From NCBI GenBank assembly GCA_945870025.1, contig CAMBQN010000003.1, positions 1 to 64,000 of the forward strand: a stretch of DNA of 64,000 nucleotides. Direction: 5' to 3'. The first letter of the stretch is position 1; every line of letters starts with the position of its first letter. This document shows positions 43,086 to 60,590 of the stretch, piece after piece. Source of the DNA: Akkermansia muciniphila (GTDB lineage Bacteria > Verrucomicrobiota > Kiritimatiellia > RFP12 > JAAYNR01). The position numbers and the translations under genes are program-made. The notes beneath the pieces are model-generated. The model had not been told where the DNA came from. It made no database searches and saw nothing but the letters and a program-made list of their open reading frames with translations.

Positions 43086-43396
43086 ACATAAGCGGCGGCG
43101 TCTTTGGGCGTCGGGATTTCGCCTTCCTTGCGCGGCGTGAACTGACGGAACGCGGGGACATACGGCGCTTCCTCCAGTTTAGGAGTCGGATTGGGGGCGG
43201 GCGGCGACAACGGCACGAACGGGTCATTGATGCGGATCGGCCGGTTGTCGTCTATCTCCACGCTGTCCGGGTTCAACAAGGTGGTTGGCGGGCGGCGCCG
43301 GTGGAAGATGCTTTTATAAAAAGCGGCTAGAAGAAAAAACATCCCCAGCACACCGGCGATAATGCTGACGTCTGAGAAGGGAATGGCTCCGATCAT
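43076..43396 (-). CDS. Small single-TM hypothetical protein
   Basis: One N-terminal TM helix, Pro-rich tail; embedded in a tight operon. Confidence 0.65.
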   Translation of the reverse strand: MIGAIPFSDVSIIAGVLGMFFLLAAFYKSIFHRRRPPTTLLNPDSVEIDDNRPIRINDPFVPLSPPAPNPTPKLEEAPYVPAFRQFTPRKEGEIPTPKDAAAYVWE

Positions 43397-44259
43397 GGAG
43401 TTGCCTCCGGTGTGTCGGTTGTCTGTTGGGCGAATGCGGCCAGACCGGTGTCGTGCGAGGCCTGTTCGGCGATCTCGGGGTTGATTTGCGACGCTTGGGC
43501 GGCAAAGCCGAGCATCAAGGCGGTATCGCAGATGTTGTTGATGCTGCGGGGGATTCCCATGGAATAGCGGTAGATCGTGTCAAGCGCTTCGCGCGAGAAC
43601 GACCAGATATCGCCGCCGACGGCGCGCATGTGGTGTTGCACATACTCGGTGGTTTGTTCGGGTGAAAGCGGCGTGAGTTTCCAGTCGAGCTGGATGCGGC
43701 GGCGGAGGGATTCAAAGCCCTTGATGGATTCACGCAGTGCTTCGGTGCCGGCCAGAATGGTGGTAAAGAGGGGCGTTTCGGTACGGTTCCCCGTGGCGGG
43801 GATGCGGAGGTTGCTCAGGTAGTGAGCGAGATAAAACCCGTCGCCCGATGCCAGGAAATGGGCTTCATCGATCATCAGCAGGTGGCGTGAGAGGTTGCGG
43901 CTGTTGTTGGACTGGCAGTATGACTGCAGGAGCATGAGCGCCTCGGGCAGGGTCTGGACCGGATCTGCGATGCTCAGACTGCGGAGGATGTGGCGGGCCA
44001 TCGGCAGGGCGCCGTCCGGAATCGCGTCGATGCGGATCGTGGGAATCTTGATATTCTGGGCGTGTCGGAACAGTTGCTCGAGTGTGAGTGACTTGCCGAT
44101 GCCGTACGGGCCTGTGAGCATGCCGGCCATGTGTCCCTGGTCGACGAGGTAGAGAAGGCGTGCCAACCCCTCCTGATGCTGCTCGGTCAGGAACATCAGG
44201 CGGTCATTAACCACGTTGAGGAACGGCGCTTCGCGCAGATTCCAGTATTGTGTATACAT
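43393..44259 (-). CDS. ExeA/GspA-like AAA ATPase
   Basis: MYTQYWNLREAPFLNV, Walker A GPYGIGKSLT, Walker B LLMIDEAHFL. Confidence 0.88.
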   Translation of the reverse strand: MYTQYWNLREAPFLNVVNDRLMFLTEQHQEGLARLLYLVDQGHMAGMLTGPYGIGKSLTLEQLFRHAQNIKIPTIRIDAIPDGALPMARHILRSLSIADPVQTLPEALMLLQSYCQSNNSRNLSRHLLMIDEAHFLASGDGFYLAHYLSNLRIPATGNRTETPLFTTILAGTEALRESIKGFESLRRRIQLDWKLTPLSPEQTTEYVQHHMRAVGGDIWSFSREALDTIYRYSMGIPRSINNICDTALMLGFAAQASQINPEIAEQASHDTGLAAFAQQTTDTPEATP

Positions 44260-44265
44260 GGCGGG

Positions 44266-45117
44266 TTACCTTTGATCGGGCATTCGCACGACCGATGAGA
44301 ACGCGATTGGCTTTTTAGGGGAGGCCGGTGCCGCTGGCTTGGCCGGCGGCTGCGTCGAAGCCCGGTTGCCGACCGATGCCGCCGGGCCGGGGGGGGGTAC
44401 CGGGGAAGAGGTCTGGTCCGCCGGGAGGACAAACCCCTTGCCGCTGTGGATTGCGAACGGCATCGGTGTTGACAGGTTCTGAATTTCCCCGAGATACTTG
44501 GAAACGCGCATGACCCGGTCGGCCTGGTTGGTATGGTCGAGGGTGATCGAGACGGGGCAGAGATCGTCGAGTTTGTTTTTCAACAGAAAAGCGGCGTTGG
44601 AGACCGGCTTGGGGAGGGTCAGCAGAACCGTGGCGCCGATCCGGTCGAGGGCATGGACAAACGAGTAGAGGTGTTGGACGAGACGCGAGATCGGTTGGAT
44701 TGCCAGCCAGGGAAGAACGGTGTCGAGAACCACACGCCGGATCGATTGCGACTCGATTGTTTCCTGCAGTTCCTCGAAGGCCTGCGGGGGGAGCAGGATA
44801 TTGTGGCTGGAGGCATTCTCGGTGATCAACGAGGCGTATTCCAGCAGCACAAGCTGTCCGGATGCGACGGCGTCGGCGAAGGGCATGCCGAAGCTCTCCG
44901 AGACAATCAGCGCATCCGCCGCGCGGTAGCCCGACAGCAGCAAGGCCCGGTCACCTTCGACAAGCGCCTGATGGATAAAGTGCAGACCGAGGATGGACTT
45001 GCCGCTTCCGGCTCGTCCGCAACACAAGACTTGCCGGTTGCGGTAAACGCCACCGAACACGTCATCGAACAACGGTATGCCCAACCGGGTTTTATCAATC
45101 ACGCAAACCTCATGCAA
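44266..45117 (-). CDS. KaiC-like RecA-superfamily ATPase
   Basis: GIPLFDDVFGGVYRNRQVLCCGRAGSGKSILGLHFI; VVLDTVLPWL. Confidence 0.85.
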   Translation of the reverse strand: MHEVCVIDKTRLGIPLFDDVFGGVYRNRQVLCCGRAGSGKSILGLHFIHQALVEGDRALLLSGYRAADALIVSESFGMPFADAVASGQLVLLEYASLITENASSHNILLPPQAFEELQETIESQSIRRVVLDTVLPWLAIQPISRLVQHLYSFVHALDRIGATVLLTLPKPVSNAAFLLKNKLDDLCPVSITLDHTNQADRVMRVSKYLGEIQNLSTPMPFAIHSGKGFVLPADQTSSPVPPPGPAASVGNRASTQPPAKPAAPASPKKPIAFSSVVRMPDQR

Positions 45118-45513: not shown

Positions 45514-45636
45514 TTGGACACACCCTTCGTTCTCGCCTCATTTACACAATGCCGGAGCCGCGCATGCGGCACCCCGTCCTCCCCGAGCAGTGGCGTCATT
45601 ATGGCAAACTAAGCCCTTGCGGTCAAAGTAAAAAAA

Positions 45637-45652
45637 TGGCATACTTCGGGCT
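45637..45652 (+). promoter_or_regulatory. Weak sigma-54-like promoter upstream of the polysaccharide synthase
   Basis: TGGCATACTTCGGGCT has GG-N10-GC spacing but a weak -12 box. Confidence 0.3.
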
Positions 45653-45674
45653 ACGGTTTGACGGCGGTCGTACT

Positions 45675-47165
45675 ATGCAACCCAACGAAGCGAATAAAGC
45701 GAATACAACGTGGATATCGGACCGGCGTGTAGGCGGCAGACGGTGTCGGTGCCCTCCGTGCGCGCTCTCCGTGTATGTGGTTGACACGCCGGCCCCGGTG
45801 ACATGCCCCTATTGTCAGACGAGCTTGACAGTCGAGGAGGTGGGCAGGCCGCTGGCCGCCGAATCGCCGGTGCCGACGGCGGACGAGGTGCGCGCGCGGT
45901 TGACGAACCTGTACCATCAGCCGCCCAAGCTGGCCGTCGTTCTGATCAGTCTTGTGGCCGTGTTTCTGCTGGCGGCGGCGGTTTTCCTGCAGATTCGGAA
46001 CGCCGAGAACTACTGGTATCAGCCGCTGGTCAGCATTTACTCGATGCTGGCGGGGATCTTTGTCGTGTCGCGGTTTATCATCGCCGCCTTCTACGTGCCG
46101 CCGCAGGATGTCGGCTACGAGCCGACGATCACCGTGCTGATCCCCTGCATGAACGAGGAGGCGGTGATCCGGCAGACGATCGAGCGGATTTTCTCCTCGG
46201 GCTATCCCTCTGGCAAGTTGGAGGTCGTGTGTGTCAACGACGGGTCCAACGACGGCACCCTTAAGGAGATGCTGGATGCCCAGACGCGGCACCCGAATCT
46301 GGTGGTCGTTGACTTCGAGAAGAACCGCGGGTTGTGCCATGCGTGGGCGGTGTCGACGCTGATCGCCCGCGGGGAATTCATGGTGTGCGTCGATTCCGAC
46401 ACCTTTATTTTTCCGGGATCGCTGCGCAAGCTGGTTCAGGCGTTCGTGGATCCCTCCGTCGGCGGCGTTTCGGGGCACTGCGATGTGGAGAACGCGGGAA
46501 CCAACCTGCTCACGCAGATGCAGGATGTCCGCTATTACTTCTCCTACAAGATCATGAAGGCGGCCGAGAGCGTGTTTGGGGCGGTGAGCTGTCTGCCCGG
46601 CTGTTTCTCGGCCTATCGGCGGGTGTGCGTGTTGCACGTGCTGGATCCGTGGTTGAACGCCACGGTCTGGGGGATGCACGGCAATTATGCGGATGACCGG
46701 TCGCTGACGAACAAGATCCTGAAGGATTTCAAGATCATTTACGACGACGAAGCGCTGGCGACCACGATTGCGCCCGACAATTGGGGGCAGTACACGCGTC
46801 AGCAGTTGCGCTGGGTGCGTTCGTACTTGCGAGAGATCTGGGGCACGGGCAAATACATATGGCGCAAGCATCCGGTGCCGGCCCTGTCGTGGTACGCGAT
46901 GATGTGGATGCCCCTCGTGGAGCCGGTTGTCATGATCCAGGCGCTGGTGTTGGGCCCGATTCTGGCGGGCACGGTGACGGCGTCATACATGATCGGCGTG
47001 CTGGCCATCACGCTGGTGTGGTCGTTGCACTTCTGGGCGCAAACGGGGCGGCGCTGGTGGTGGGGGGGCATCGTCTTCACCCTCTCCTACATTTTGTTTT
47101 ACAGTTGGCAAATCTACTGGGCGTTTCTCACGCTCAGAGGAAAAAAGTGGGGGACGCGCGGATGA
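45675..47165 (+). CDS. Membrane GT2 polysaccharide synthase (PgaC/HasA-like) with N-terminal zinc ribbon
   Basis: CPPC-X14-CPYC; VNDGSNDGT, DSDTF, GHCDVENAGTN, QQLRW; multiple TM helices. Confidence 0.9.
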   Translation: MQPNEANKANTTWISDRRVGGRRCRCPPCALSVYVVDTPAPVTCPYCQTSLTVEEVGRPLAAESPVPTADEVRARLTNLYHQPPKLAVVLISLVAVFLLAAAVFLQIRNAENYWYQPLVSIYSMLAGIFVVSRFIIAAFYVPPQDVGYEPTITVLIPCMNEEAVIRQTIERIFSSGYPSGKLEVVCVNDGSNDGTLKEMLDAQTRHPNLVVVDFEKNRGLCHAWAVSTLIARGEFMVCVDSDTFIFPGSLRKLVQAFVDPSVGGVSGHCDVENAGTNLLTQMQDVRYYFSYKIMKAAESVFGAVSCLPGCFSAYRRVCVLHVLDPWLNATVWGMHGNYADDRSLTNKILKDFKIIYDDEALATTIAPDNWGQYTRQQLRWVRSYLREIWGTGKYIWRKHPVPALSWYAMMWMPLVEPVVMIQALVLGPILAGTVTASYMIGVLAITLVWSLHFWAQTGRRWWWGGIVFTLSYILFYSWQIYWAFLTLRGKKWGTRG

Positions 47166-50100
47166 ACACACCGGAAACGAATACATCGGAACCGGGCAGG
47201 TCGGCGGCGCCCGTGCAACAGGCTGAGGGCGCCCGTGCAACAGGCTGGCGGCGCCCGGCCCCGATGTCGAAGGATTCCAACACGCGGGCGTGGCTGATCT
47301 TCCTCGCCGTCGTGTGCCTAGGCGCGGCACTGTGGGCGCCTCTGCGCGTGTTTTATTACCAGCATCGCTACCAGCCCATCGTGGACGCCCGGCCCCGAGA
47401 CGCGGCGTGTTTCGTGGCAGTCGCGTATCCGGGCGTTTCCGAGGACCCCCCTGCAGGCTCGCAGGACATCACGCCGGCCGCATTCGAAGCGCAGATCAAA
47501 ATCCTCCGCGACCGCGGCTACACCCCGATTGAACTGAAAGACGTGCAGGCGTTCTACGACGCGGGAAAGCCGTTGCCGCGCAAGGCAATCCTGACGACGT
47601 TCTCCCAGACGCGCAAGACCTCCTATTTCGAGGTTCGGCAATTGCTGCGCGTCCTCCGCTGGAAGGCGGTCATGGGGGTCTGCACATCGCCGATCCACGC
47701 CCGCGACCCGCAGTCGCTTCTCTGGCCCTATCTGCGGGATATGCTCAATCCGGGTCCCTGGGAACTGGCGGGCGAGTCTCAGAATGGGTATCATTTCGTG
47801 CCCGCGTTCTCGGACGGCAGTACGGGGCCGTTTTTCTCGACCCCCCAATGGCTGCCAGAATCCAATCGGCTTGAATACCCCGAGGAGTTTCGGGCGCGGA
47901 TCCGGGGTGACCATGAGGCCTTTCTCTCCGAATTTGCGCGCGAGACCCAGCAGAAGCCGCTGGCGTTCTTCTTCCCGTACGGCGACTACGGTCAATTTGA
48001 CGAGCGTGCCCAGTTCGTCAGGTTGAGCAACCTGTATCAGGTGGGTGAGAAGTATCCGCTGGGCTTTACGCTTGGCAATCTGGCCTTGAACACCCGGTTG
48101 ACCGACCGTCGCCGCCTGAACCGCCTGCTGGTCGATCCGCAGTGGACAGCCGAAGAGCTGGCCAACCGGCTTGATGCGTTCTGGCCCATGGAGATGACGA
48201 TCGATACCCGCCTGCATGTCTTTTCGCGCGAATCGGTGATCCGCGAATGGGGCGGGCTGAAACTCCTCGACCAAGGGTTTTCCCTGTATGCGATTCCGTC
48301 CGAAAACCCGGTGTACGATGAGCGTCTGGATGAGCGGAAGCGGACGGCGACAAGCGGATCGCGCGTCTGGCTCGCCGGAAGCGATACGTTCATGAACGGT
48401 CATTTCGTCGTGCGCTTCCATTTGGCGCACGGCCGGTTTGGCGTATACCTCCGCGCCGTTCCGGGGCATGAGCATCTTTATTTCCTGGTGGACGAAAACG
48501 GACAGGTGGGCGTGCGCCAAAAGCTGCCGGATCTGGATGAAGTCACGCTGGCATCGGAAGACGCCCCGATCGAGCAGGACACCAACCACGAGCTGGTTAT
48601 CACGCTCAAGGGCAACCTCCTGTACGCGCGCCTGGACGACAAATCCCTGTTTGACGGGCCCGTGCTGCTGCGCGAGACCCCGCGCCCTGGAATGCTGGGT
48701 TTGAGCGTCTGGGAACGGATCCCCGGTGTTGCGGCGGCCGACGTAATTGACGCGCGCATCCTCGCGCGCCGGGAGGCGATCGTGAACTGGACGCCCCATA
48801 CGGCGCGGGACGTCAGCTACCTGACCCGCTGGCTGAGCGAGCACTGTTTCCGCTTCTCGATCCTGTCGCCACCCTGGATCGACATCTTCGAGGGTTCGCC
48901 CCAGAAGTTTCCGATTTGGGATCAGGAGGCCCTCGATCTGCTGGCGCGCACCAATCAAACACGGATTTATCCGTATATCCAAATCCGGCAGTCTTCCGTG
49001 CTGATGCCGGCCTCGGCCGATGCGATCCTCGACGATCTGGTGATGCTCACGGGTGTGTCGGGTCTGTTCATCGACGCGACCGCCGTTCGGACTGAAGAGG
49101 TGAATGCGCTGGTAAACTGGCTGTTACGGTTGCAGGAGGGGATGGAAAAAGCGGGCTTCCGGTTGGCGATCAAACTGCCGCAGACGATCGAGTCGCTGCC
49201 GTCCGCCGGCAACATGCTCAAGCTGTTTCCCAACGCGCTGCTGGTCGGCGATTTCAAACAACCCCCATTCGGATTGACGGCCGACCGTGTGGTGAGCATC
49301 GACTCGGTCTCGCCGCCGACGAGCGATGAAACCCTGGCGCTCTACTACCAAATCTCAAATCTGGCGACGAACTACGAGGGCGTGTCCGCCGAAGTGACGC
49401 ACGAGGCGTTGCGCCAGAGTGGGTTTGATGCATTTGCCGCCGGTGATTATGAAGGCGCGATCGCGATCTGGGGCCAATGGTTTAAAGCGGACCCGCGGAG
49501 CGCCGAAGCGATCGGACTGATCGGCGACGCCCAGATGCGGATGAACGCCCTGGATCTGGCACTCCAGTCATACACGCGCAGTCTGGAACTCAACCCCGGC
49601 GAAATGAATCTGGTGGTGCGGCGGGCGCGGCTTTTGGAGACGATGAAGCGGATGGACGAGTCCGTGGCCGCGCTGAACATGTATTCCCGAACGTTTCCCG
49701 ACTCGCCGGCCATCATTGTCGCGCAGGCCCACTGGATGTCCCGCAACGGGCAACGCGATCGGGCGCGCGAGTTGATGCGCGATCTGGTCAAGCGGTTTCC
49801 CGACGAGATCGAATCCCGGCTGGTCTTGCAGACGTTGCTCGATCAGCCGGCGGAACGGTACGCCAACACCCGCGAACTGCTCGATATGTGCGAGGGCCAG
49901 GAAACCCAGCACTTCGCGTTCGGCAAGGAACTGGGCGCCGTCGAGTTGCTGGCGATTCCCGAGGCGAGCGTCTTCTTCAACTTCATCCGCCGCACGGCGG
50001 CCCACTCGCCCAACAAGCAGACGCGCGAGTTGTACCGGAGTTTTCTGCCGCTTACCAACAGCGTCGTGGAAGATTTCTCAACCGGAAAACTCTCCGATAA

Positions 50101-51424
50101 CTGGTTCTATCTCGGCGGCCTGCGGCCCCTCGACCGCGGGCGTTACGAACTGAAGGCGTCGACCGACCTGGCCGAGGCGTTTCTCCGACTCAAGAAATCG
50201 GAACTGCTGCGGGACGGGTTTCTGGAGGTGCAGTTGGACGAATCGGTGGGTTATTTCTGGATCTATGCCAGGCGCAGCACCCGGTCGATGGTCCGTTTCG
50301 GTTTTGACAATGAGGGCTTTATTCACATCCAAAGCTGGTTGAACGGGGCTTTGACCAGCTATGAAAACCGGCCGTGGATGCGGCCGCCGGGGATGCTTTC
50401 CCTGCGGTTGGAGGTGCACGGCGACGGGGCCATGGGTTATATCAACGATCAACCGACTTTTGCGACGCCGCTGATCATCCCGCCCGAGGTCGCTTACGGC
50501 TGGTGGAGCATCGCGCCGTTCTCGCCCGATTACGGGGTGGCGCGCGCCCGCATTTCGAGCATTCACTGCGGGCCGCTGGCACCGGTTCTGGTGATGCTGC
50601 CACCTCTGAACGACGCCCGGATGAACGACGCGCTGGACTGGGTCCGGCCCCGGGTGCGGAACATCTCGGCCTTGTGCCCGGTCACCTTCCTGCAAAACCC
50701 CGACGGCACGATCGGTTCCGTCCCGCAGACCGCATTCTCGCTGACGCGGATGTTCGCCACCTACCACCGCCTCCGCCTGATGCCGGTGCTGGACATGTCC
50801 TATTTTTCGGACATCGAACCGGCCAGGATCATTGAGCTGATCCAGAAACATCAGCTTGCCGGCCTGATCGTCCGCATCCGCATTCTCCCCGACGAAGCGT
50901 GGTTCAAGAAACTGGAGCGCGAGATGGAACGGACCACGGCCGATCTGATTGTGATCCGGAACGAGCGCACCTTCTGGCCCATACCGGGCACGGGCGAGGC
51001 GGAACTGCCCCTGGATGGCGAACGCAAGCGTCTGAAGAGGCTGCCAACCTCGCTGGTGCGGGAGATCCCGCGCGGCAGTCTACTGCTGCCCCCCATCGCG
51101 GCAACCTGGACGATTCGGGCGCAACCGTATCAGGACTGGATGACCGAGACCAACCGCATCGACGTGGTCGGGGCGGAACTGCGGCTCTTTGTCGTCCCGA
51201 ACTCGATCATCGGCACCAACACCGCACAGGTGGTCGCGGCCGCGCACAAAGCGTTGCAGGAGGAGGCGCTGGCCGACGCCCGGCAGCCGGTCCGGGAGGA
51301 GGATATCAAGAATGACACAACACCGACGATCCCGCAACGAATCGAAGTGCCGTCCGCCGTCCCGGAAGCGGCTGCGGAAGCCGGACTGCGGTTGAATGAT
51401 CCTAAAAGGAGCAGTGAGCAGTGA
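47162..51424 (+). CDS. Giant membrane-anchored PgaB-like protein: degenerate polysaccharide-deacetylase domain, LamG-like domains, hydrolase-like TIM-barrel region, TPRs
   Basis: TM anchor WLIFLAVVCLGAALWA; TTFSQTRKTSYFEV in the TFDDG position; FFFPYGDYGQ; TPR ...AEAIGLIGDAQMRMNALDLALQSYTRSLELNP; 4-bp overlap with the synthase gene. Confidence 0.8.
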   Translation: MNTPETNTSEPGRSAAPVQQAEGARATGWRRPAPMSKDSNTRAWLIFLAVVCLGAALWAPLRVFYYQHRYQPIVDARPRDAACFVAVAYPGVSEDPPAGSQDITPAAFEAQIKILRDRGYTPIELKDVQAFYDAGKPLPRKAILTTFSQTRKTSYFEVRQLLRVLRWKAVMGVCTSPIHARDPQSLLWPYLRDMLNPGPWELAGESQNGYHFVPAFSDGSTGPFFSTPQWLPESNRLEYPEEFRARIRGDHEAFLSEFARETQQKPLAFFFPYGDYGQFDERAQFVRLSNLYQVGEKYPLGFTLGNLALNTRLTDRRRLNRLLVDPQWTAEELANRLDAFWPMEMTIDTRLHVFSRESVIREWGGLKLLDQGFSLYAIPSENPVYDERLDERKRTATSGSRVWLAGSDTFMNGHFVVRFHLAHGRFGVYLRAVPGHEHLYFLVDENGQVGVRQKLPDLDEVTLASEDAPIEQDTNHELVITLKGNLLYARLDDKSLFDGPVLLRETPRPGMLGLSVWERIPGVAAADVIDARILARREAIVNWTPHTARDVSYLTRWLSEHCFRFSILSPPWIDIFEGSPQKFPIWDQEALDLLARTNQTRIYPYIQIRQSSVLMPASADAILDDLVMLTGVSGLFIDATAVRTEEVNALVNWLLRLQEGMEKAGFRLAIKLPQTIESLPSAGNMLKLFPNALLVGDFKQPPFGLTADRVVSIDSVSPPTSDETLALYYQISNLATNYEGVSAEVTHEALRQSGFDAFAAGDYEGAIAIWGQWFKADPRSAEAIGLIGDAQMRMNALDLALQSYTRSLELNPGEMNLVVRRARLLETMKRMDESVAALNMYSRTFPDSPAIIVAQAHWMSRNGQRDRARELMRDLVKRFPDEIESRLVLQTLLDQPAERYANTRELLDMCEGQETQHFAFGKELGAVELLAIPEASVFFNFIRRTAAHSPNKQTRELYRSFLPLTNSVVEDFSTGKLSDNWFYLGGLRPLDRGRYELKASTDLAEAFLRLKKSELLRDGFLEVQLDESVGYFWIYARRSTRSMVRFGFDNEGFIHIQSWLNGALTSYENRPWMRPPGMLSLRLEVHGDGAMGYINDQPTFATPLIIPPEVAYGWWSIAPFSPDYGVARARISSIHCGPLAPVLVMLPPLNDARMNDALDWVRPRVRNISALCPVTFLQNPDGTIGSVPQTAFSLTRMFATYHRLRLMPVLDMSYFSDIEPARIIELIQKHQLAGLIVRIRILPDEAWFKKLEREMERTTADLIVIRNERTFWPIPGTGEAELPLDGERKRLKRLPTSLVREIPRGSLLLPPIAATWTIRAQPYQDWMTETNRIDVVGAELRLFVVPNSIIGTNTAQVVAAAHKALQEEALADARQPVREEDIKNDTTPTIPQRIEVPSAVPEAAAEAGLRLNDPKRSSEQ

Positions 51425-51595: not shown

Positions 51596-53071
51596 ATGCT
51601 GTTTCCCACAACCGTTTTTGCCGTTTTCTTTCTGATTGTCTGTTACACCCACTGGGCGCTGACCGAGCGGCCCAAGACCCGCAAAGTCTTTTTGTTGGCG
51701 GCCAGCCTCTTTTTTTACGGTTATTGGAGTTGGACGTTTGCGTTGATGCTGCTGGCCTCGGCGTGCATCAACCACGGGATGGCGGTTATGATTGACGCAT
51801 TGCAGGATCACAGGCTCCGGCGCCGGGTGATGATCGGCACGGTCGGTTTCAATCTCGGCATTCTGGCCCTCTTCAAGTACACCGGATTTCTGTACAAGCA
51901 GTTGTTCACGCCGCTGGCCGTGCCGTTGTGCCACTGGCTGGGGGCGACGGAGCATCTGGTCGAGATGCAGGAGCGCGTGCTGCCGTTCATTGACCAGATC
52001 GTCCTTCCCGTCGGGATCTCGTTTTACACCTTTCAAGCGCTCAGCTACGTGGTCGACGTGTACTGGCGAAAGGTCGAGATCGCCCGCTCGACCCTTGATT
52101 TCGCCAATTATCTGGCGTTTTTTCCGCAACTGGTCGCCGGACCCATTGTCCGGGCCAGCGATCTGCTCCCCCAGATGGGGGTGTTCCCCGGCCGGGAGAC
52201 CGGGATCGACACGGGGCGCGCAGCAATCCTGATCTTGGGCGGGTTGTTCAAAAAAATGGTGGTGGCGAACTGGCTGGCCGAGAATCTGGCCGACCCGGTG
52301 TTTGCGCAGCCCGATGCCTTCGCGTCGGGAGCGGACATCCTGATCGGCATTTATGCGTATGCCATCCAAATCTATTGCGACTTTTCAGCCTACTCCGACA
52401 TTGCCATCGGGTGTGCGATCTTGATGGGATTCCATTTCCCAATCAACTTCAACGCGCCGTATTTCGGCGTGACCCTGCAGGATTTCTGGCGACGGTGGCA
52501 CATCTCCCTGTCGACCTGGTTGCGGGATTACCTGTACATTCCCCTGGGAGGCTCGCGGGCGGGTGCGAGCCGCACCTGGTGCAACCTGCTGCTCACGTTC
52601 GTGCTGGGGGGTCTGTGGCACGGAGCCGCCTGGACGTTTGTGCTGTGGGGGGCGTTTCATGGCGGTTATCTGGCGCTGGAGCGCGTCGTGCGCCGCGCGT
52701 GCGGACTCTCCGAAAAGCCGGCGGAACACCCGCACCGGGTCTTGGCGTTCCTGGGGCGGATCTGGATCTTCCATGTCGTGTGCTTTTCGTGGATCCTGTT
52801 CCGATCACCGGACCTGACGGCGTGCGGCGAGATGGTGCGGGGCCTGGGCCGGTGGGAGGTCGCGCCCACCCTCTGGACGGCGCGCGCACTGCTGGTGCTG
52901 CTTGTGGGGTTCTCTCTCCAAGGCCTGGACGGCGACCGCATGCAAGGCGTGTGGCGGCGCTTCAACGCCCTGCCCGTCATCGCGCAGGGCGCGCTTGCCG
53001 CCGTTGCGCTGACGATCATCCTGGCTCTGGGGCCGGTCGGCGTGGCCCCGTTTATCTATTTTCAGTTCTAG
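51596..53071 (+). CDS. MBOAT-family O-acyltransferase (AlgI-like)
   Basis: LPVGISFYTFQALSYVVDVYW, FFPQLVAGPIVRA, DFWRRWHISLSTWLRDYLYIPLGG, GLWHGAAWTFVLWGAFHG catalytic His. Confidence 0.95.
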   Translation: MLFPTTVFAVFFLIVCYTHWALTERPKTRKVFLLAASLFFYGYWSWTFALMLLASACINHGMAVMIDALQDHRLRRRVMIGTVGFNLGILALFKYTGFLYKQLFTPLAVPLCHWLGATEHLVEMQERVLPFIDQIVLPVGISFYTFQALSYVVDVYWRKVEIARSTLDFANYLAFFPQLVAGPIVRASDLLPQMGVFPGRETGIDTGRAAILILGGLFKKMVVANWLAENLADPVFAQPDAFASGADILIGIYAYAIQIYCDFSAYSDIAIGCAILMGFHFPINFNAPYFGVTLQDFWRRWHISLSTWLRDYLYIPLGGSRAGASRTWCNLLLTFVLGGLWHGAAWTFVLWGAFHGGYLALERVVRRACGLSEKPAEHPHRVLAFLGRIWIFHVVCFSWILFRSPDLTACGEMVRGLGRWEVAPTLWTARALLVLLVGFSLQGLDGDRMQGVWRRFNALPVIAQGALAAVALTIILALGPVGVAPFIYFQF

Positions 53072-53086
53072 GCGAAACAGGAAGGT

Positions 53087-53389
53087 GTGCGTATGGATGT
53101 GCAGATTGAAGAAAAGGAAGGAGCCGGTGCGTCTCCCCGCCATTCGTCCGTCCCCCGGGCGTTGTTTTTTGTAGGTGTTTTCTATGGCGTTATGCTAATC
53201 TTGAACGGCGTTTCGATGCGGGAGAGTGCCGCATTGCTCGAATACGGCTGGCAGCGGGATGCACTGTGTCGGCTGAACCGTCCGTGCGAGGCGGTCTCAC
53301 GGAGCACGCGCGCGTTCCTTTTTCGCGAGGAATTGCGAAAAACGGTTGGTCGGTGGTTGAACACGGCTCACGCGAAAGAAGGAGAATAA
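53087..53389 (+). CDS. Small membrane protein between AlgI-like and SGNH genes
   Basis: Single TM helix ALFFVGVFYGVMLILNGV; fits between neighbours (next ATG 3 bp after its stop). Confidence 0.7.
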   Translation: MRMDVQIEEKEGAGASPRHSSVPRALFFVGVFYGVMLILNGVSMRESAALLEYGWQRDALCRLNRPCEAVSRSTRAFLFREELRKTVGRWLNTAHAKEGE

Positions 53390-53391
53390 GC

Positions 53392-54117
53392 ATGCAGACA
53401 GTCCGGATACTGGGGCTTTGGGCCATTCTGGCGGCATCCGGGGCGGGGGCGCAGCAGGCGGTGACGCCCGCCATGGCCGGCGCTGCGGAGCGAACGGCGC
53501 GCGCGCCGGTGCTGATGGTTGGCGATTCGATGATGCGACTGCTGTCCGTTGCGTTTGAAAAGGAATTCCGCAAGCAGGGCATCGAGGCGGCCTCATTCGC
53601 CTCGCTGGGGTCGGGATTGGTTCGGCTCGACGCCTTTGACTGGTATGCCAAGATCCGCGAGCTGATGGACACGCACAAGCCGGGCACGGTGATTGTGGTG
53701 TTGGGGACCAATGACGACCAGCCCCTGCTGGATGAGAATGACCAGACGATTAACAAAGGCACGGACGCGTGGAATCGGGAATATTCAAAGCGGTTGGGAA
53801 AAATCATGGACACTTTCCTCGAACACGGGGCGCTGCGAGTGATCTGGCTGTTGCAGCCCGACATGAAGCAGGCGACTCACCAGCGCTATGCCGACCGTCT
53901 CAATGCGCTGATCACCGCTGAGGCCGGCACGCGACCGGCGGTCCTCTTGTTTGATAGCCGCGCCGTTCTCTGCCGCAGGCCCGGTGCGCCGTATTCGGCG
54001 ACCTTGGTCGGGAAGGACGGGCAAATGATCCAGGTGCGCGACTCGGACGGTGTCCATCTCTCGCGCGACGGCGCCGAACGCCTGGCGGCGGCCGTTGTCG
54101 CAGCCCACTGGAAGTGA
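53392..54117 (+). CDS. Secreted SGNH/GDSL-like hydrolase
   Basis: VLMVGDSMMRLLS, VVLGTNDDQPL, DSDGVHLSRDGAERLA; signal peptide. Confidence 0.87.
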   Translation: MQTVRILGLWAILAASGAGAQQAVTPAMAGAAERTARAPVLMVGDSMMRLLSVAFEKEFRKQGIEAASFASLGSGLVRLDAFDWYAKIRELMDTHKPGTVIVVLGTNDDQPLLDENDQTINKGTDAWNREYSKRLGKIMDTFLEHGALRVIWLLQPDMKQATHQRYADRLNALITAEAGTRPAVLLFDSRAVLCRRPGAPYSATLVGKDGQMIQVRDSDGVHLSRDGAERLAAAVVAAHWK

Positions 54118-54160: not shown

Positions 54161-57100
54161 ATGGAACAAATAATTCTGCTTGCAGGAAGTCGGCGTGAGT
54201 GCGTCGTTTCCGGTCGCGCGATTCGGTGGCTGTGCTTGCTGTTCTGCCTGGGCGCGCGCGTGCTCGTGGCCAACGCGCCCTTCCTCGATCCGGTTATCGC
54301 ACCGGTCACGCGCGCGCTGATTGATGCGGCGATTAAAGAGGCCCAGACGTCGGGGGACGTCGACGTGTCGACCCCCCGCGCGCTTTTATACAAGGGCCTC
54401 ATGCTGTTTCAGAAGGAGGACTATCTCGCGGCCATCCCGTATCTCGAGGAAGCGCTGCGCCAGGATCCCACGTTGATGGGGGCCTGGGAGGCGCTGGGCT
54501 GGGCCTATTGGCGGACCGATCAGAAGGAAAAAGCGGTGCGGCATTTCGAGGCGTTCCGCCGCCTGATGCCGAATCAGGCGCTTCCATACAGTATGCTGGC
54601 TCAATACGGCATTCTGATACAGGACTGGAAGATGGCCGACGCGAACTTTCGCAAGGCGCTGGAGATCAATCCCGATCAGTATGACCTGCGAAACTGGTAT
54701 GCGCAGAATATGATGCGGATGGGCAGGGACTTGGAGGCCGAGCAGCTTTTGAAGCAGTTGATACAGGAAGATCCTGATCGCGTGGACATCATGATCACGC
54801 TGGCGCAATTGCTTTATTTTCAGCAACGATACGAAGACTCTGCCGAGTTGTGGACGCGTGTGTTAAAGCAACTCCCCGATAACGCCAATTTTATGGTCGA
54901 ACTGGCGCGGATCCAGATGGTTCTGGGCAATCTGGAAGAGGCGGATCAGCTTTGTATCGCTGCCCTGGAACGCGAACCCGATTTGTATCCGGCGCTCATG
55001 CTGCGGGCGGATCTTGCCGATATCGGCGACATGGCCGGAGCCAGCGTGGAACGGCTGGAGGCTGTGATCCGGGCCACTCGCGACGCGCCCATGCGCGCCA
55101 AATTGCGCGAACGGTTGGCCACACGTTGCCATGCGTTCAACGACCGGCAACCGGGTGCGTTCCCCCCCTCTTACATCCTCGACCAATTGGCCCAGGCGGT
55201 CCAGGAAGATCCGAAAAACATGTATTTGGCGCTCACCTATGCCGAGTATTGCCTGATTTTCAAGCAGTATCACGAGGCGCGCAAGTGGGCGCGGCTCGTG
55301 CTAGAGGCGTTCAACCGCCACAACGTGCGCGCCAAAGAGGTCTATTTTGAATGCGCACTGGGCGAGGGTCTTTACGACGAGGCGGAACAAATCCTGGATG
55401 ATCTGTATTCTGCCTATGACCCGAGCGACCCGATGCGAAAATATCACCAGGCGCGTGTGGACCTCTTCCGTGGGCGTTATGTGGAGGCGATGGCGTGCCT
55501 CGACGAGATGGAGGCACAAGCCGAGAAGGGGACGGTGCTCACCCTGTTGTACCACGGCCTCACCGAGAGCGACTGGCTGCCGCGCACGTCGGTGCGGCGG
55601 CTTTATGAGCACCTCTTCGCCCTCAAGCAGGCCGGGTTCACCTTTGTTTCTCCGACGGACATCCCTGCCCTTATCGGCGCGAAGAACGGCGTGTCGCCGG
55701 CCGAAGACGCGGCGCGGGATGAAGCGGATGACGCGAATGACGCGCGTGAGGCGGTGCCGCTGCCCGCGCGGCTCATCGACTCCCTCCGCTATTCATTTAC
55801 CGGTGAGCGGAAGTTCAAGCGCGTGTCGCCCCAGAAACAGATGCGCGAGAAATACCGGTCGCCGGGCAAGAACGTGGCCGTCACATTTGACGACGGTCTC
55901 CGCAGTTCGTTCGACCTGGGCACGCCGGTCGCCGAGGACTTGGGGGTTCCGTTCGGCATGTTTGTGATCACGTGGCGGGCGGACTATGATCCCTCCGTTA
56001 CGTCGTGGGATGAGATGCGGAAATATGCGGCTTCGGGCTCGTGGGTGATCGGCAGCCACTTGCATGACGCGCATGCGGATGTCGCCGTCTCGTCCGACAC
56101 CAACCACCTGGCCCGGGCCCTTCCCAACCGCATCTGGATGCCGGCCAAGAATCGGTTGGAATCGATGAACGAATGGGACAGGCGGATGCGTCAGAATTTC
56201 CGGATCAGCCGCAAAATCATCGACGAGAAGTTGGGGGACGCGGCCAGCACGCTGGCGATGGTCGCCTATCCGTACGGCGACATCGGGCAGGAAGGGACGT
56301 GCAACCTGTCGACGTTGCGCAACCCCGTGCAGACCCTATTGGCAGAAGCCGCCCGCAATTATCAGTTGGGGTTTGCCCTCGACCGCAACGGCTATACGAC
56401 TACCGGGGACAGCAGCCTGCTTGTGCGGCGGTATGAGCCGGCGTGGTACGACGAGGGGGCGGATGTCGTGCGCCATGCCTATCAGAACCATCCGTTGTTC
56501 ATGGCGCGCGCGCTGCGCATCGAGTTGGCCAAGGTGATGGGCAAGCCGCATGTCGCCGAGGCGATGCTGAAACTGCTCCGCCGCGACGGCTACCCCGAAG
56601 ATCTGATCCGCAAGATGGACTTCGCCAACACGGCCCATTTCCGAAATCGCTCGCAACGCGCCGAGAAGGCGTTGTACGGTTCGGCTGCCTTCCCCTCACC
56701 GGTTTCGGCCGGTTCCGTTCAGAGTTCCGTTCAGAGTTCCTCGGAGGGCGTTTACACGGTCGCTGCGGACGGCACGCGCTCCACGCCTGCTGATGACGGC
56801 TCGTGGTACAAGCCGTCTGACGTGTCCGTCGGCGCGCATGTTTACAATTCGCAGGCGAATAACGAATATGAAGTAACCCGGGAGGGCGTGCGCGGCGGGT
56901 TCAATCTCAACCCGCGCACCTGGCTGGGCGCCGAGTATACCCATAGCACGATCACGCAGCAGCCGAGGCCGATCCGCACGCTGACAGACCCCCTCGATCT
57001 GACTCTGGACTACACCTGGGAGAACAGCGCGATCAACCCCGATATCCTCATCGGCGCCAAAGCCAGCCGGGAAGACATTCGCCTGCGATCTTCTCACCGC

Positions 57101-57835
57101 TTTGATTCCGGCTCGACGCTGGCGGCTTCGATCGGTTTGGCGCGCTTCCGCCTGGAGCAGAACGAGGAGTGGGAGTATTCGGTGTATTATGGGGATTGGG
57201 AAGCGAGAGAGACCGATTCGAGCAAGCTGATTGGCGATCTGACGTATAGCTGGTTCCCTTCCGAAAAAGTGGCCATGAGCGCGTATTTTGCGCATGATAT
57301 TCTGCCGGTGGCCTATCGATTGGTGCCGTCCGACACCTTGGGGCTGAATGCAGGCTGGAAGGTGTCCGACACGTGGGACTCCCACTTGCGCAGCCAGTAT
57401 TCGTTGTATGGGGATGACAACGCGATGTACCAGTTTGCGGTCGATTCGTTCTGGGATGTCGCGCCCGAACTCAATCTCTCGTTCGGATTGGAATACGCGA
57501 TGGCCTCGACCAGCGATTACAACCCGTACTATTGGACGCCTTATTGGGACGAACGGGTGAGCGCGATCTTCCGGTACGCTCAGGCGTGGCCCGGTTATGC
57601 GTTCAACATTGACATGATCTTCGGACATCAGCGCGAAGGCGCGCGTCCGCAAGAGTACAATGAATGGGGCGTCTTCTACGGTGACGCGACCGAATGGGAG
57701 AACGCCTGGGGCATGGCATCGACTTACCGTCAGCAGCTCAAGAAACACTGGGACCTGATGCTCGACGTCCGGACGATGTTCCTGCGTAGCTACGCAGACC
57801 ACAGCTTCTACCTAAGCCTCGATTATACGTTCTGA
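54161..57835 (+). CDS. TPR - polysaccharide deacetylase - outer-membrane beta-barrel fusion (PgaA/PgaB-like modules in one chain)
   Basis: N-terminal TPRs; KNVAVTFDDGLRSSFDLG and IGSHLHDAHAD deacetylase motifs, VAYPYGDIG; C-terminal amphipathic beta-strands ending LSLDYTF. Confidence 0.85.
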   Translation: MEQIILLAGSRRECVVSGRAIRWLCLLFCLGARVLVANAPFLDPVIAPVTRALIDAAIKEAQTSGDVDVSTPRALLYKGLMLFQKEDYLAAIPYLEEALRQDPTLMGAWEALGWAYWRTDQKEKAVRHFEAFRRLMPNQALPYSMLAQYGILIQDWKMADANFRKALEINPDQYDLRNWYAQNMMRMGRDLEAEQLLKQLIQEDPDRVDIMITLAQLLYFQQRYEDSAELWTRVLKQLPDNANFMVELARIQMVLGNLEEADQLCIAALEREPDLYPALMLRADLADIGDMAGASVERLEAVIRATRDAPMRAKLRERLATRCHAFNDRQPGAFPPSYILDQLAQAVQEDPKNMYLALTYAEYCLIFKQYHEARKWARLVLEAFNRHNVRAKEVYFECALGEGLYDEAEQILDDLYSAYDPSDPMRKYHQARVDLFRGRYVEAMACLDEMEAQAEKGTVLTLLYHGLTESDWLPRTSVRRLYEHLFALKQAGFTFVSPTDIPALIGAKNGVSPAEDAARDEADDANDAREAVPLPARLIDSLRYSFTGERKFKRVSPQKQMREKYRSPGKNVAVTFDDGLRSSFDLGTPVAEDLGVPFGMFVITWRADYDPSVTSWDEMRKYAASGSWVIGSHLHDAHADVAVSSDTNHLARALPNRIWMPAKNRLESMNEWDRRMRQNFRISRKIIDEKLGDAASTLAMVAYPYGDIGQEGTCNLSTLRNPVQTLLAEAARNYQLGFALDRNGYTTTGDSSLLVRRYEPAWYDEGADVVRHAYQNHPLFMARALRIELAKVMGKPHVAEAMLKLLRRDGYPEDLIRKMDFANTAHFRNRSQRAEKALYGSAAFPSPVSAGSVQSSVQSSSEGVYTVAADGTRSTPADDGSWYKPSDVSVGAHVYNSQANNEYEVTREGVRGGFNLNPRTWLGAEYTHSTITQQPRPIRTLTDPLDLTLDYTWENSAINPDILIGAKASREDIRLRSSHRFDSGSTLAASIGLARFRLEQNEEWEYSVYYGDWEARETDSSKLIGDLTYSWFPSEKVAMSAYFAHDILPVAYRLVPSDTLGLNAGWKVSDTWDSHLRSQYSLYGDDNAMYQFAVDSFWDVAPELNLSFGLEYAMASTSDYNPYYWTPYWDERVSAIFRYAQAWPGYAFNIDMIFGHQREGARPQEYNEWGVFYGDATEWENAWGMASTYRQQLKKHWDLMLDVRTMFLRSYADHSFYLSLDYTF

Positions 57836-58031: not shown

Positions 58032-60590
58032 ATGATCTCCTGCGCCGACAGCATCAGCGACCGCGACATCAACCGCGGCTTGCGTCGCAGCATCATCGCC
58101 TCGTCCGTCTGCATGTTTTTCGCGGCGGTCTCCGGAGGCATTCCCTACGCGATGCTGCTGGATCGGCTGCAGGCCAGCGGCAAAGTCCAGGGCCTGGCGG
58201 CGATGGTCGGACAACTGGCCCTGGCCTCGATGCTGGTCAGCGCCATCTTCTCCGAGCGAATCAGCAGCCGTCGCGCCGTGTGGCGCTGGTGCCTGTTGGT
58301 CAGCCGCTGCCTGTGGTTCGTGCCACCCGTCCTCATCTGGCTTCGCCCGGAATCCTCGACCGCCGCCCTCATCATCGGCATCTCCTGCATCTCGGGGCTG
58401 ATCGGCAACATGGGAAGCGCCGTCTGGCAGAGCTGGATGGCCGATCTGATCCCGGAAAACGCCCGCAGCTCGTTCTGGAGCATGCGTCAGAGTTGGACGA
58501 TGCTCACCTTCCTCGTCAGCATGGGCCTCTCGGGCTGGATGCTCGATGCGTTTGATGCGGGCAATCCCAACGCCTCTACCCTGGGCTTTGCCTGTGTCTT
58601 TTTTCTGGCGGCTATTTCGGGCGTCGCCGACATTCTGATCCATTGGTCGGTCCCCGAGCGCCCGGCCAAGCCCTCCGCGAGCCCCATCCCGCTAGCGCGG
58701 CGTCTCCTCGTCCCGCTCCGCCACCCCAGTTTTCGCAACCTCGCCCTGGCTATGGGATTCTGGGCCCTCTCCTGCACCATCATCGGATCCTTCAGCGCGC
58801 TCTACCTGAAGCGCGTCATGCACGCCACCTACACCGAATTGTCGGTCGCCCCGATCGCCGGCGCCCTGAGTTGCATCCTCGCGGGAATCGTCGCCAGCTA
58901 CATCATTGATCGCGTGGGTCCCAAGACCATGGCGTCGGTGATGATCATCATCTGCCCCTGCTTCGGCCTCTTCTGGTTCCTGATCACGGATGATCCCGTC
59001 TCCTTCACGATCCCCCTGCTGCATCTGACCGTGGTCACCAAGCAGGCGATTGTGCTTCTGGGGTTTTCCACGTTTCTGTGCGCCGGCCTCTACTCGGTGA
59101 TCGGACTCTGCCATCTCAGCCTCGTCGCGGCGATCGCCCCCAAACGCGGACGCACCGTGGCGATGGCCGTGCAGTGGACGCTGATCGGGTTGATAGGCGC
59201 GATCGGTCCCTTGATCGGCGGATTCGTCATGGACGGCTGTGGCGACGGGTTCAACCTGCTGCTACGCGGTTCGACCCGGTTGAACTACATCCACATCCTC
59301 TGTTTGTGCCACGCAGCCGTCGCCTGGTTCATCGCGTTCCCTCTGTTCCGTTCGATCCGGGTTCGGCGCGAGCCGCTCAGTCTGCGCCGCGCCATCAGCC
59401 TGCTGGTCCCCGTCAATCCGCTCCGCTTCGCCTCCGGAATTTATTACGGCCGCATCATCAATCTCCCCGCGACACCCGAACGGCGGCTCCGGGCGGTCGA
59501 GGCGGTCGGCGACACCGGAGCCGAGATCGCCGTCACGGACCTCTGCGCCAAGCTCGACGATCCCTCGCTCGATGTCCGGGAGGCCGCCGTCGTGTCGCTC
59601 GGGCGCATCGGCTCGCGCGAGGCGATCACCCGCCTGCTGGCCGTGATCCGCGATCCGGAGAGCGATCTGACCGTCGGTGCCCTGCGGGCCTTGCGCGAGA
59701 CGCTGCGCGAGGCCCTCCGCGAAAAACCGATGTTCCATCCGATGGGCGCCCTGCTGCAGCAGCCCGACGACACGCCCGATTGGATTCCCATCGTTGCGGA
59801 TGGCGTTCGCCCGCTCCTTTTCCATCCGAACATCGAGGTCGTCCGCGAGGCATCCCGCGTCCTGGGCTGGACGCCCAATCCCGCCGCCCGCGACGCTCTG
59901 CTCGACATCCTACACACGACCCGCATCGAATCCATTGCGCTCGCCACTGCGGCCGCGCTCGGTCGGCAGGGCGATGTCACCGCCGTCTATGCGATCATCC
60001 CCCGCATGCGCGCCACCGCCAACGCCAACGCTGAAAAAGCCTTTGCCGTGGCCGCAGGCGACCTGCTCGGCGTGCCGGACGGCTTCTACAAAATGCTGAC
60101 CCGCGAGGAGCAGACCCATAATTCCGCGCTCGCCGACCTGGTCCGGCGCCTCACGGCAAACAGCGCCCGGCTGGAGGCTGACAAGCACGGCCGGTTCCTC
60201 TCCGAGATGGGACACGCCTTGGCCGGAATCGAAGATCACTACGAGGCGCGCAACCTGATGTCCTGCGCCGACACCGCCCTGCGCATCACCCGCCTCTTCG
60301 CCCAGCACCGGTATCAGATTGCCGAAAACCTGACCGTCTTCCGTTTCCTGCCCGAGCTTGAACGGCACGATACGCGTTTCGCGGCGGGCGCCTGGTTCAT
60401 CGCCCTGCTCTCCGGTGCCTTTGCCCGAGCCGACGCCCCGCCTGCGATGCACCCAGTCCGCTCGCTCGTCGAAATCCAGCTCGCCGTCTATGTCCTCTCC
60501 GCCTGGGCCGACGACCTCTTTCGAAAACCCCGGAGTACGTCGTCCCATATTATGACCATGCCAAACACCGAGGGAATGACACTTACTTAA
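58032..60590 (+). CDS. MFS-type transporter with C-terminal HEAT repeats
   Basis: 12-TM-like N-terminal region; C-terminal DPSLDVREAAVVSLGRIGSREAITRLLAVIRDPESDLTVGALRAL. Confidence 0.82.
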   Translation: MISCADSISDRDINRGLRRSIIASSVCMFFAAVSGGIPYAMLLDRLQASGKVQGLAAMVGQLALASMLVSAIFSERISSRRAVWRWCLLVSRCLWFVPPVLIWLRPESSTAALIIGISCISGLIGNMGSAVWQSWMADLIPENARSSFWSMRQSWTMLTFLVSMGLSGWMLDAFDAGNPNASTLGFACVFFLAAISGVADILIHWSVPERPAKPSASPIPLARRLLVPLRHPSFRNLALAMGFWALSCTIIGSFSALYLKRVMHATYTELSVAPIAGALSCILAGIVASYIIDRVGPKTMASVMIIICPCFGLFWFLITDDPVSFTIPLLHLTVVTKQAIVLLGFSTFLCAGLYSVIGLCHLSLVAAIAPKRGRTVAMAVQWTLIGLIGAIGPLIGGFVMDGCGDGFNLLLRGSTRLNYIHILCLCHAAVAWFIAFPLFRSIRVRREPLSLRRAISLLVPVNPLRFASGIYYGRIINLPATPERRLRAVEAVGDTGAEIAVTDLCAKLDDPSLDVREAAVVSLGRIGSREAITRLLAVIRDPESDLTVGALRALRETLREALREKPMFHPMGALLQQPDDTPDWIPIVADGVRPLLFHPNIEVVREASRVLGWTPNPAARDALLDILHTTRIESIALATAAALGRQGDVTAVYAIIPRMRATANANAEKAFAVAAGDLLGVPDGFYKMLTREEQTHNSALADLVRRLTANSARLEADKHGRFLSEMGHALAGIEDHYEARNLMSCADTALRITRLFAQHRYQIAENLTVFRFLPELERHDTRFAAGAWFIALLSGAFARADAPPAMHPVRSLVEIQLAVYVLSAWADDLFRKPRSTSSHIMTMPNTEGMTLT

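Follow-up and report, generated by a model that had tools for sequence, protein, structure and literature searches.

A proposed exopolysaccharide export pore with a built-in PgaB-type deacetylase domain in Kiritimatiellota

The locus

The window, i.e., the whole stretch of 64,000 nucleotides analysed here, carries a forward-strand operon comprising the following genes:

45549-47165, + strand: GT2 processive synthase, PgaC/NodC/chitin-synthase-like (DxD and QxxRW present; syntenic in relatives)
47162-51424, + strand: PgaB-like protein with a dead CE4 domain, TPR and other domains (profile matches and alignment to E. coli PgaB)
51596-53071, + strand: MBOAT O-acyltransferase, AlgI/DltB-like (PF03062, E=1e-34; WRRWHISL and LWHG motifs)
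53087-53389, + strand: small ORF (syntenic in several relatives)
53266-54117, + strand: SGNH/GDSL (DUF459, PatB-like) O-acetyltransferase partner (PF04311, E=2e-45; NF045704, E=3.5e-19)
54161-57835, + strand: TPR-CE4-barrel fusion protein, 1224 aa (single open frame; one-frame homologues in many MAGs)

This order, often including the small ORF, recurs in relatives with enough flanking sequence and is rearranged in some families. Homologues of the small ORF lie between the MBOAT and SGNH genes at loci L005, L015, L038, L077 and L089, and in the gap between the MBOAT and fusion genes at L071. The synthase scores 116 bits against the PgaC_IcaA model (cut-off 422.3) and 151.8 bits against NodC (cut-off 550; both NCBIfam), and by sequence it resembles GlcNAc polymerases. 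Its stop codon overlaps the probable start of the PgaB-like gene, an ATG at 47162; the mechanically assigned ORF start (46781) lies too far upstream. The overlap suggests translational coupling of the two genes. MBOAT and SGNH proteins form O-acetylation pairs in AlgI/AlgX and PatA/PatB, and the SGNH protein of the window carries the GDS, GTND and DGVH motifs. A GGGGG stretch precedes the ATG of the fusion gene by about 8 bases.

The separate PgaB-like protein aligns to E. coli PgaB across the CE4 domain only and scores 86.6 bits against the PgaB equivalog TIGR03938, below the cut-off of 321.9. Its CE4 motifs are degraded in the window (AYPGV, TFSQT, GESQNGYH), and every copy with readable motifs has other residues in place of the MT5 and metal histidines and lacks an intact DD pair. 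A search for the GH153 domain in this protein and in the operon detected none.

Architecture of the fusion protein

The product of 54161-57835, which we propose to be a fused PgaA/PgaB deacetylase on the basis of its sequence, consists of the following parts:

54161-54274, + strand: N-terminal signal region, MEQI...VLVANA (hydrophobic core, then VANA; predicted cleavage site)
54311-55528, + strand: TPR superhelix (Pfam TPR models to E=1.6e-27; AlphaFold helices at pLDDT ~85-93; Foldseek match to the OGT TPR)
55529-56440, + strand: circularly permuted CE4 deacetylase domain (PF01522 above cut-off; alignment to E. coli PgaB and BpsB)
56441-56644, + strand: helical (TPR-like) hairpin between CE4 and linker (AlphaFold helices, mature chain 728-791)
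56645-56815, + strand: disordered linker (pLDDT 26-44; identity 30%)
56816-57832, + strand: 16-stranded outer-membrane barrel (AlphaFold; Foldseek BcsC 9b8a, PgaA 4y25, PelB 9h80)

The original prediction, made from the sequence alone, had placed TPRs, a deacetylase and a barrel in a single polypeptide, and the single frame, HMMs, alignments and structure models all bear this out. The TPR assignment rests on TPR_19 (Pfam, residues ~72-450, with the E-value listed above), and the helical hairpin is the best-conserved segment of the protein with a mean pairwise identity of 64%. NCBIfam returns weak matches that include PgaB, IcaB, PgaA and BcsC, all far under their equivalog cut-offs.

Membership of the central domain in CE4 is indicated by its PF01522 (Polysacc_deac_1) match, which reaches 36.6 bits against a Pfam cut-off of 23.1. 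The domain spans residues ~457-760 in precursor numbering, slightly off the predicted range of 530-850. Its motifs, LLYHG at residue 462 (nucleotide 55544), TFDDG at 575 (55883), GSHLHDAH at 631 (56051) and AYPYGD at 702 (YPYGD at ~56267), follow the permuted order of PgaB and IcaB, and together with the alignments they assign the domain to the PgaB/IcaB subtype. TFDDG had been read correctly from the sequence; the predicted SHxHDxH-like motif is better written GS-H-LHDA-H, an H-x4-H arrangement that aligns with ASHTWNSHYG of E. coli PgaB (H184/H189). In alignments to E. coli PgaB and Bordetella BpsB, TFDDG and GSHLHDAH fall on catalytic and metal residues, and the counterparts of E. coli PgaB H55, D114, D115, H184 and H189 are all intact in the window, where the equivalence of LLYHG with H55 is based on position plus the IcaB alignment. 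We take H184 to belong to this catalytic and metal-binding set; H55, D114, D115 and H189 are the residues named for PgaB in PMC7112194. The proposed PgaB-type character is thus borne out by the permuted motifs and the metal set, but not at the level of the equivalog: TIGR03938 matches the fusion with E=5e-10 and 38.2 bits, far from its cut-off, and the C-terminal GH153 domain of PgaB is absent from the fusion chain. The fusion is also the sole PF01522 match in the window genome, which is 81% complete. Because the CE4 domain of the PgaB-like protein is dead, this makes the fusion the only candidate CE4 deacetylase of the pathway here.

For structural analysis, the mature chain was modelled with AlphaFold2 using 17 aligned sequences (pLDDT 74.4, pTM 0.57). 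In mature numbering, the model comprises a TPR superhelix (13-418), the CE4 domain (419-722), a helical segment (728-791), a disordered linker (791-847) and 16 β-strands (848-1185), which agrees with the C-terminal barrel expected from the sequence and its final residues, YLSLDYTF from residue 1217. Confidence is low at CE4 motif 2 and in the linker, and the placement of CE4 relative to the pore is thus only predicted. Modelled alone, the barrel again has 16 strands (pLDDT 80.5, pTM 0.78). Foldseek against the PDB then ranks two BcsC entries and PgaA 4y25 as the top three matches, with PelB at rank 6, so that all three exporters named in the original prediction are recovered; the TM-score to PgaA 4y25 is 0.70, normalised by target. 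The succession of TPRs and a 16-stranded barrel is that of the PgaA/BcsC/PelB porins, and we consider the models good evidence that the barrel would serve as an exopolysaccharide export pore. This relationship required a structural search: Pfam barrel models did not match the window protein, hhalign did not align the barrel significantly with E. coli PgaA, and a profile search of the barrel against the PDB yielded no match. Foldseek with the whole chain returned TPR matches only, and the PgaA equivalogs TIGR03939 (21.2 vs 366.65 bits) and NF007468 (25.1 vs 1043 bits) match the TPR part alone and below cut-off.

A conserved family with recurrent loss of the active site

A scan of a collection of 85,462 species with the single window protein, a query that reaches close relatives only, yielded 13 loci in MAGs labelled Lentisphaerae, Kiritimatiellae, Verrucomicrobia or uncultured bacterium. 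With a profile search, the fusion or clear relatives were found in 38 of 390 sampled Kiritimatiellota genomes, all belonging to the window's own class, and many of the matched genomes yield full-length copies in one frame. As judged from these sequences, the fusion forms a family conserved within the class and is not a one-off. Some loci contain TPR-CE4-barrel genes in tandem, two (L071, L074) or three (L072, L073) per locus. In others, a TPR-CE4 protein without a detectable barrel is encoded beside or near a full fusion (L083, 7521-9962; L085, 7516-10173; L090, 6846-10001).

Most of the sampled relatives have a degenerate or partial catalytic set. The complete set of five (HDDHH) is present in the window, in its nearest relatives (L004, L017, L005, L006, L007 and L015) and in L071, L088 and two of the three L072 copies. 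HDDH is kept and the last histidine lost in, e.g., L076, L080, L086 and the full-length L083 copy, the barrel-less neighbour of which has the complete HDDHH set. The site is clearly degenerate in, e.g., L008, L009, L010, L012, L014, L036, L037 and two of the three L073 copies; tandem copies within L072, L073 and L074 differ from each other in active-site integrity. On a tree of the TPR and barrel columns with CE4 excluded, a quick build with some long branches, well-supported branches force at least six switches between dead and not-dead states.

Among eight dead members, pairwise identity is 63% in CE4 and 64% in the TPR region. Since the dead-site CE4 is as conserved as the TPRs, the domain appears to remain constrained without catalysis, and since the active site of the porin is lost in many relatives, the fusion must do more than couple modification to secretion. 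Judged by this sequence record, the porin CE4 must have a further, non-catalytic role, which would most simply be to hold or align the polymer, or to dock partner proteins, at the pore. Genomes with a dead porin CE4 hold 7-11 other PF01522 matches, in a small and phylogenetically confounded sample.

Proposed function and alternative readings

We propose that the operon encodes a PNAG-like, synthase-dependent exopolysaccharide exporter in which a PgaB-type deacetylase is built into the outer-membrane porin and has an additional non-catalytic role in polymer handling. Based on the sequences and models, we assign this reading a probability of about 0.72. The GT2 synthase would polymerise acetylated amino sugars into a chain that crosses the inner membrane, and the MBOAT and SGNH pair may O-acetylate it. 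By analogy with PgaA and PgaB, guidance of the chain would fall to the TPR superhelix together with the pseudo-deacetylase. The CE4 domain, positioned just ahead of the pore in this scheme, would strip N-acetyl groups from the chain on its way into the barrel; here the residues are observed, while the activity, the location at the pore mouth and the order of steps are predicted. In the window lineage, catalysis seems to have shifted from PgaB, with its dead CE4, to the porin. A natural PgaA/PgaB fusion is biologically sensible in light of the E. coli system, where binding to the porin-proximal TPR of PgaA makes the deacetylase domain of PgaB 2.3-fold more active, and the PgaA TPR groove also binds the polymer (PMC9384988). 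A broader evolutionary account describes a class-conserved exporter with a PgaB pseudoenzyme, in which catalysis moved into the pore and the pore enzyme then repeatedly became a non-catalytic module, with some genomes keeping active and inactive copies in tandem; on this account we are evenly divided.

The repeated loss or damage of the active site in a domain that stays conserved raises the alternative that CE4 is mainly structural or polymer-binding, with catalysis residual or absent even in the window lineage and other enzymes deacetylating in the group, and the additional PF01522 matches in dead-porin relatives fit such a division of labour. However, the window and its nearest relatives keep all five residues, and the window genome, within its 81% completeness, shows no second PF01522 protein. 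We therefore regard this alternative as unlikely, if the most serious of the competitors. Less probable again is that CE4 edits O-acetyl groups laid down by the MBOAT and SGNH proteins instead of acting as a PgaB-like N-deacetylase: the intact pair, syntenic in relatives, would supply the substrate, but the permuted PgaB/IcaB motif order, the H-x4-H metal site of PgaB and a synthase resembling GlcNAc polymerases point to N-deacetylation.

Doubts about a polysaccharide role or about the gene itself carry far less weight. TPRs followed by a barrel are also the plan of Slam proteins, and 12 of 17 family members have a weak TPR_Slam match, which would fit a Slam-like or other TPR-barrel secretion protein with no polysaccharide role. 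We rejected this very improbable reading on fold and operon, as the barrel matches three polysaccharide exporters, a CE4 domain lies inside the chain, and the gene shares its operon with the GT2 synthase and the PgaB-like, MBOAT and SGNH proteins. The MAG source of the sequences and the broken frames of L016 could indicate an assembly or frameshift artefact, but dozens of copies from independent assemblies show the identical one-frame architecture, which reduces this explanation to a negligible residue and led us to exclude chance or misassembly.

Relation to known systems

E. coli splits deacetylation and export between PgaB and PgaA, whereas the fusion of the little-studied Kiritimatiellota would join both. 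The two systems share a periplasmic TPR region with a 16-stranded barrel, a permuted CE4 with the H/D/D/H/H set and a GT2 synthase in the operon. They differ in that the CE4 of the fusion is part of the porin chain, where it separates TPR and barrel, and in the presence of a separate PgaB-like protein with a dead CE4 and no detected GH153. Unlike pga operons, the locus has MBOAT and SGNH genes added, PgaD was not seen, and scores for PgaA, PgaB and PgaC stay below the equivalog cut-offs. The barrel finds its top fold matches in BcsC and also matches PelB, but these proteins contain no enzyme domain in the chain, and the deacetylase PelA is separate. AlgI/AlgX, WssH/I and PatA/PatB likewise pair an MBOAT with an SGNH protein, a pair that is here combined with a PgaB-type CE4 pathway.

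The original prediction knew of no described example of such a fusion. For a PgaA-PgaB or TPR-CE4-barrel fusion our search of open-access papers agrees, as it found none. The joining of an enzyme to an export pore is, however, already precedented by its nearest counterpart, the BcsZ-BcsC fusion of Zymomonas (survey PMC7112194), in which a periplasmic polymer-processing enzyme is likewise attached to a TPR/barrel pore; in that case the enzyme is a cellulose hydrolase of a cellulose system, reported from Zymomonas only. The same survey records N-terminal GT-PgaB fusions, which also join a PgaB-type deacetylase to another pathway step, but this partner is the inner-membrane synthase and the operons are without a PgaA pore (PMC7112194). 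An EPS cluster of Pontiella (PMC7356697) was considered as a match and set aside as a different, sulfated-glycan cluster.

By uniting both activities, the fusion would set stoichiometry and order in one chain, and their coupling could be probed with point mutants and structural work on one polypeptide. The repeated active-site loss within a kept architecture offers evidence for polymer handling by a deacetylase fold apart from catalysis.

Genes flanking the operon

Directly 3' of the fusion gene, 58032-60590 (+ strand) encodes an MFS transporter fused to HEAT repeats, a gene that was not seen beside the fusion among the relatives examined. On the other side, the operon is flanked at 43393-45117 (- strand) by a KaiC-like ATPase and an ExeA-like/XrtA-associated AAA ATPase (TIGR03015, below cut-off), and a GHL10-type glycoside hydrolase-like protein is encoded nearby at 40566-43085 (- strand). 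The KaiC/ExeA-like pair also adjoins the fusion gene in L008, L009, L010, L039, L040, L077, L078 and L089, and KaiC alone is visible near it in L012, L014 and L075.
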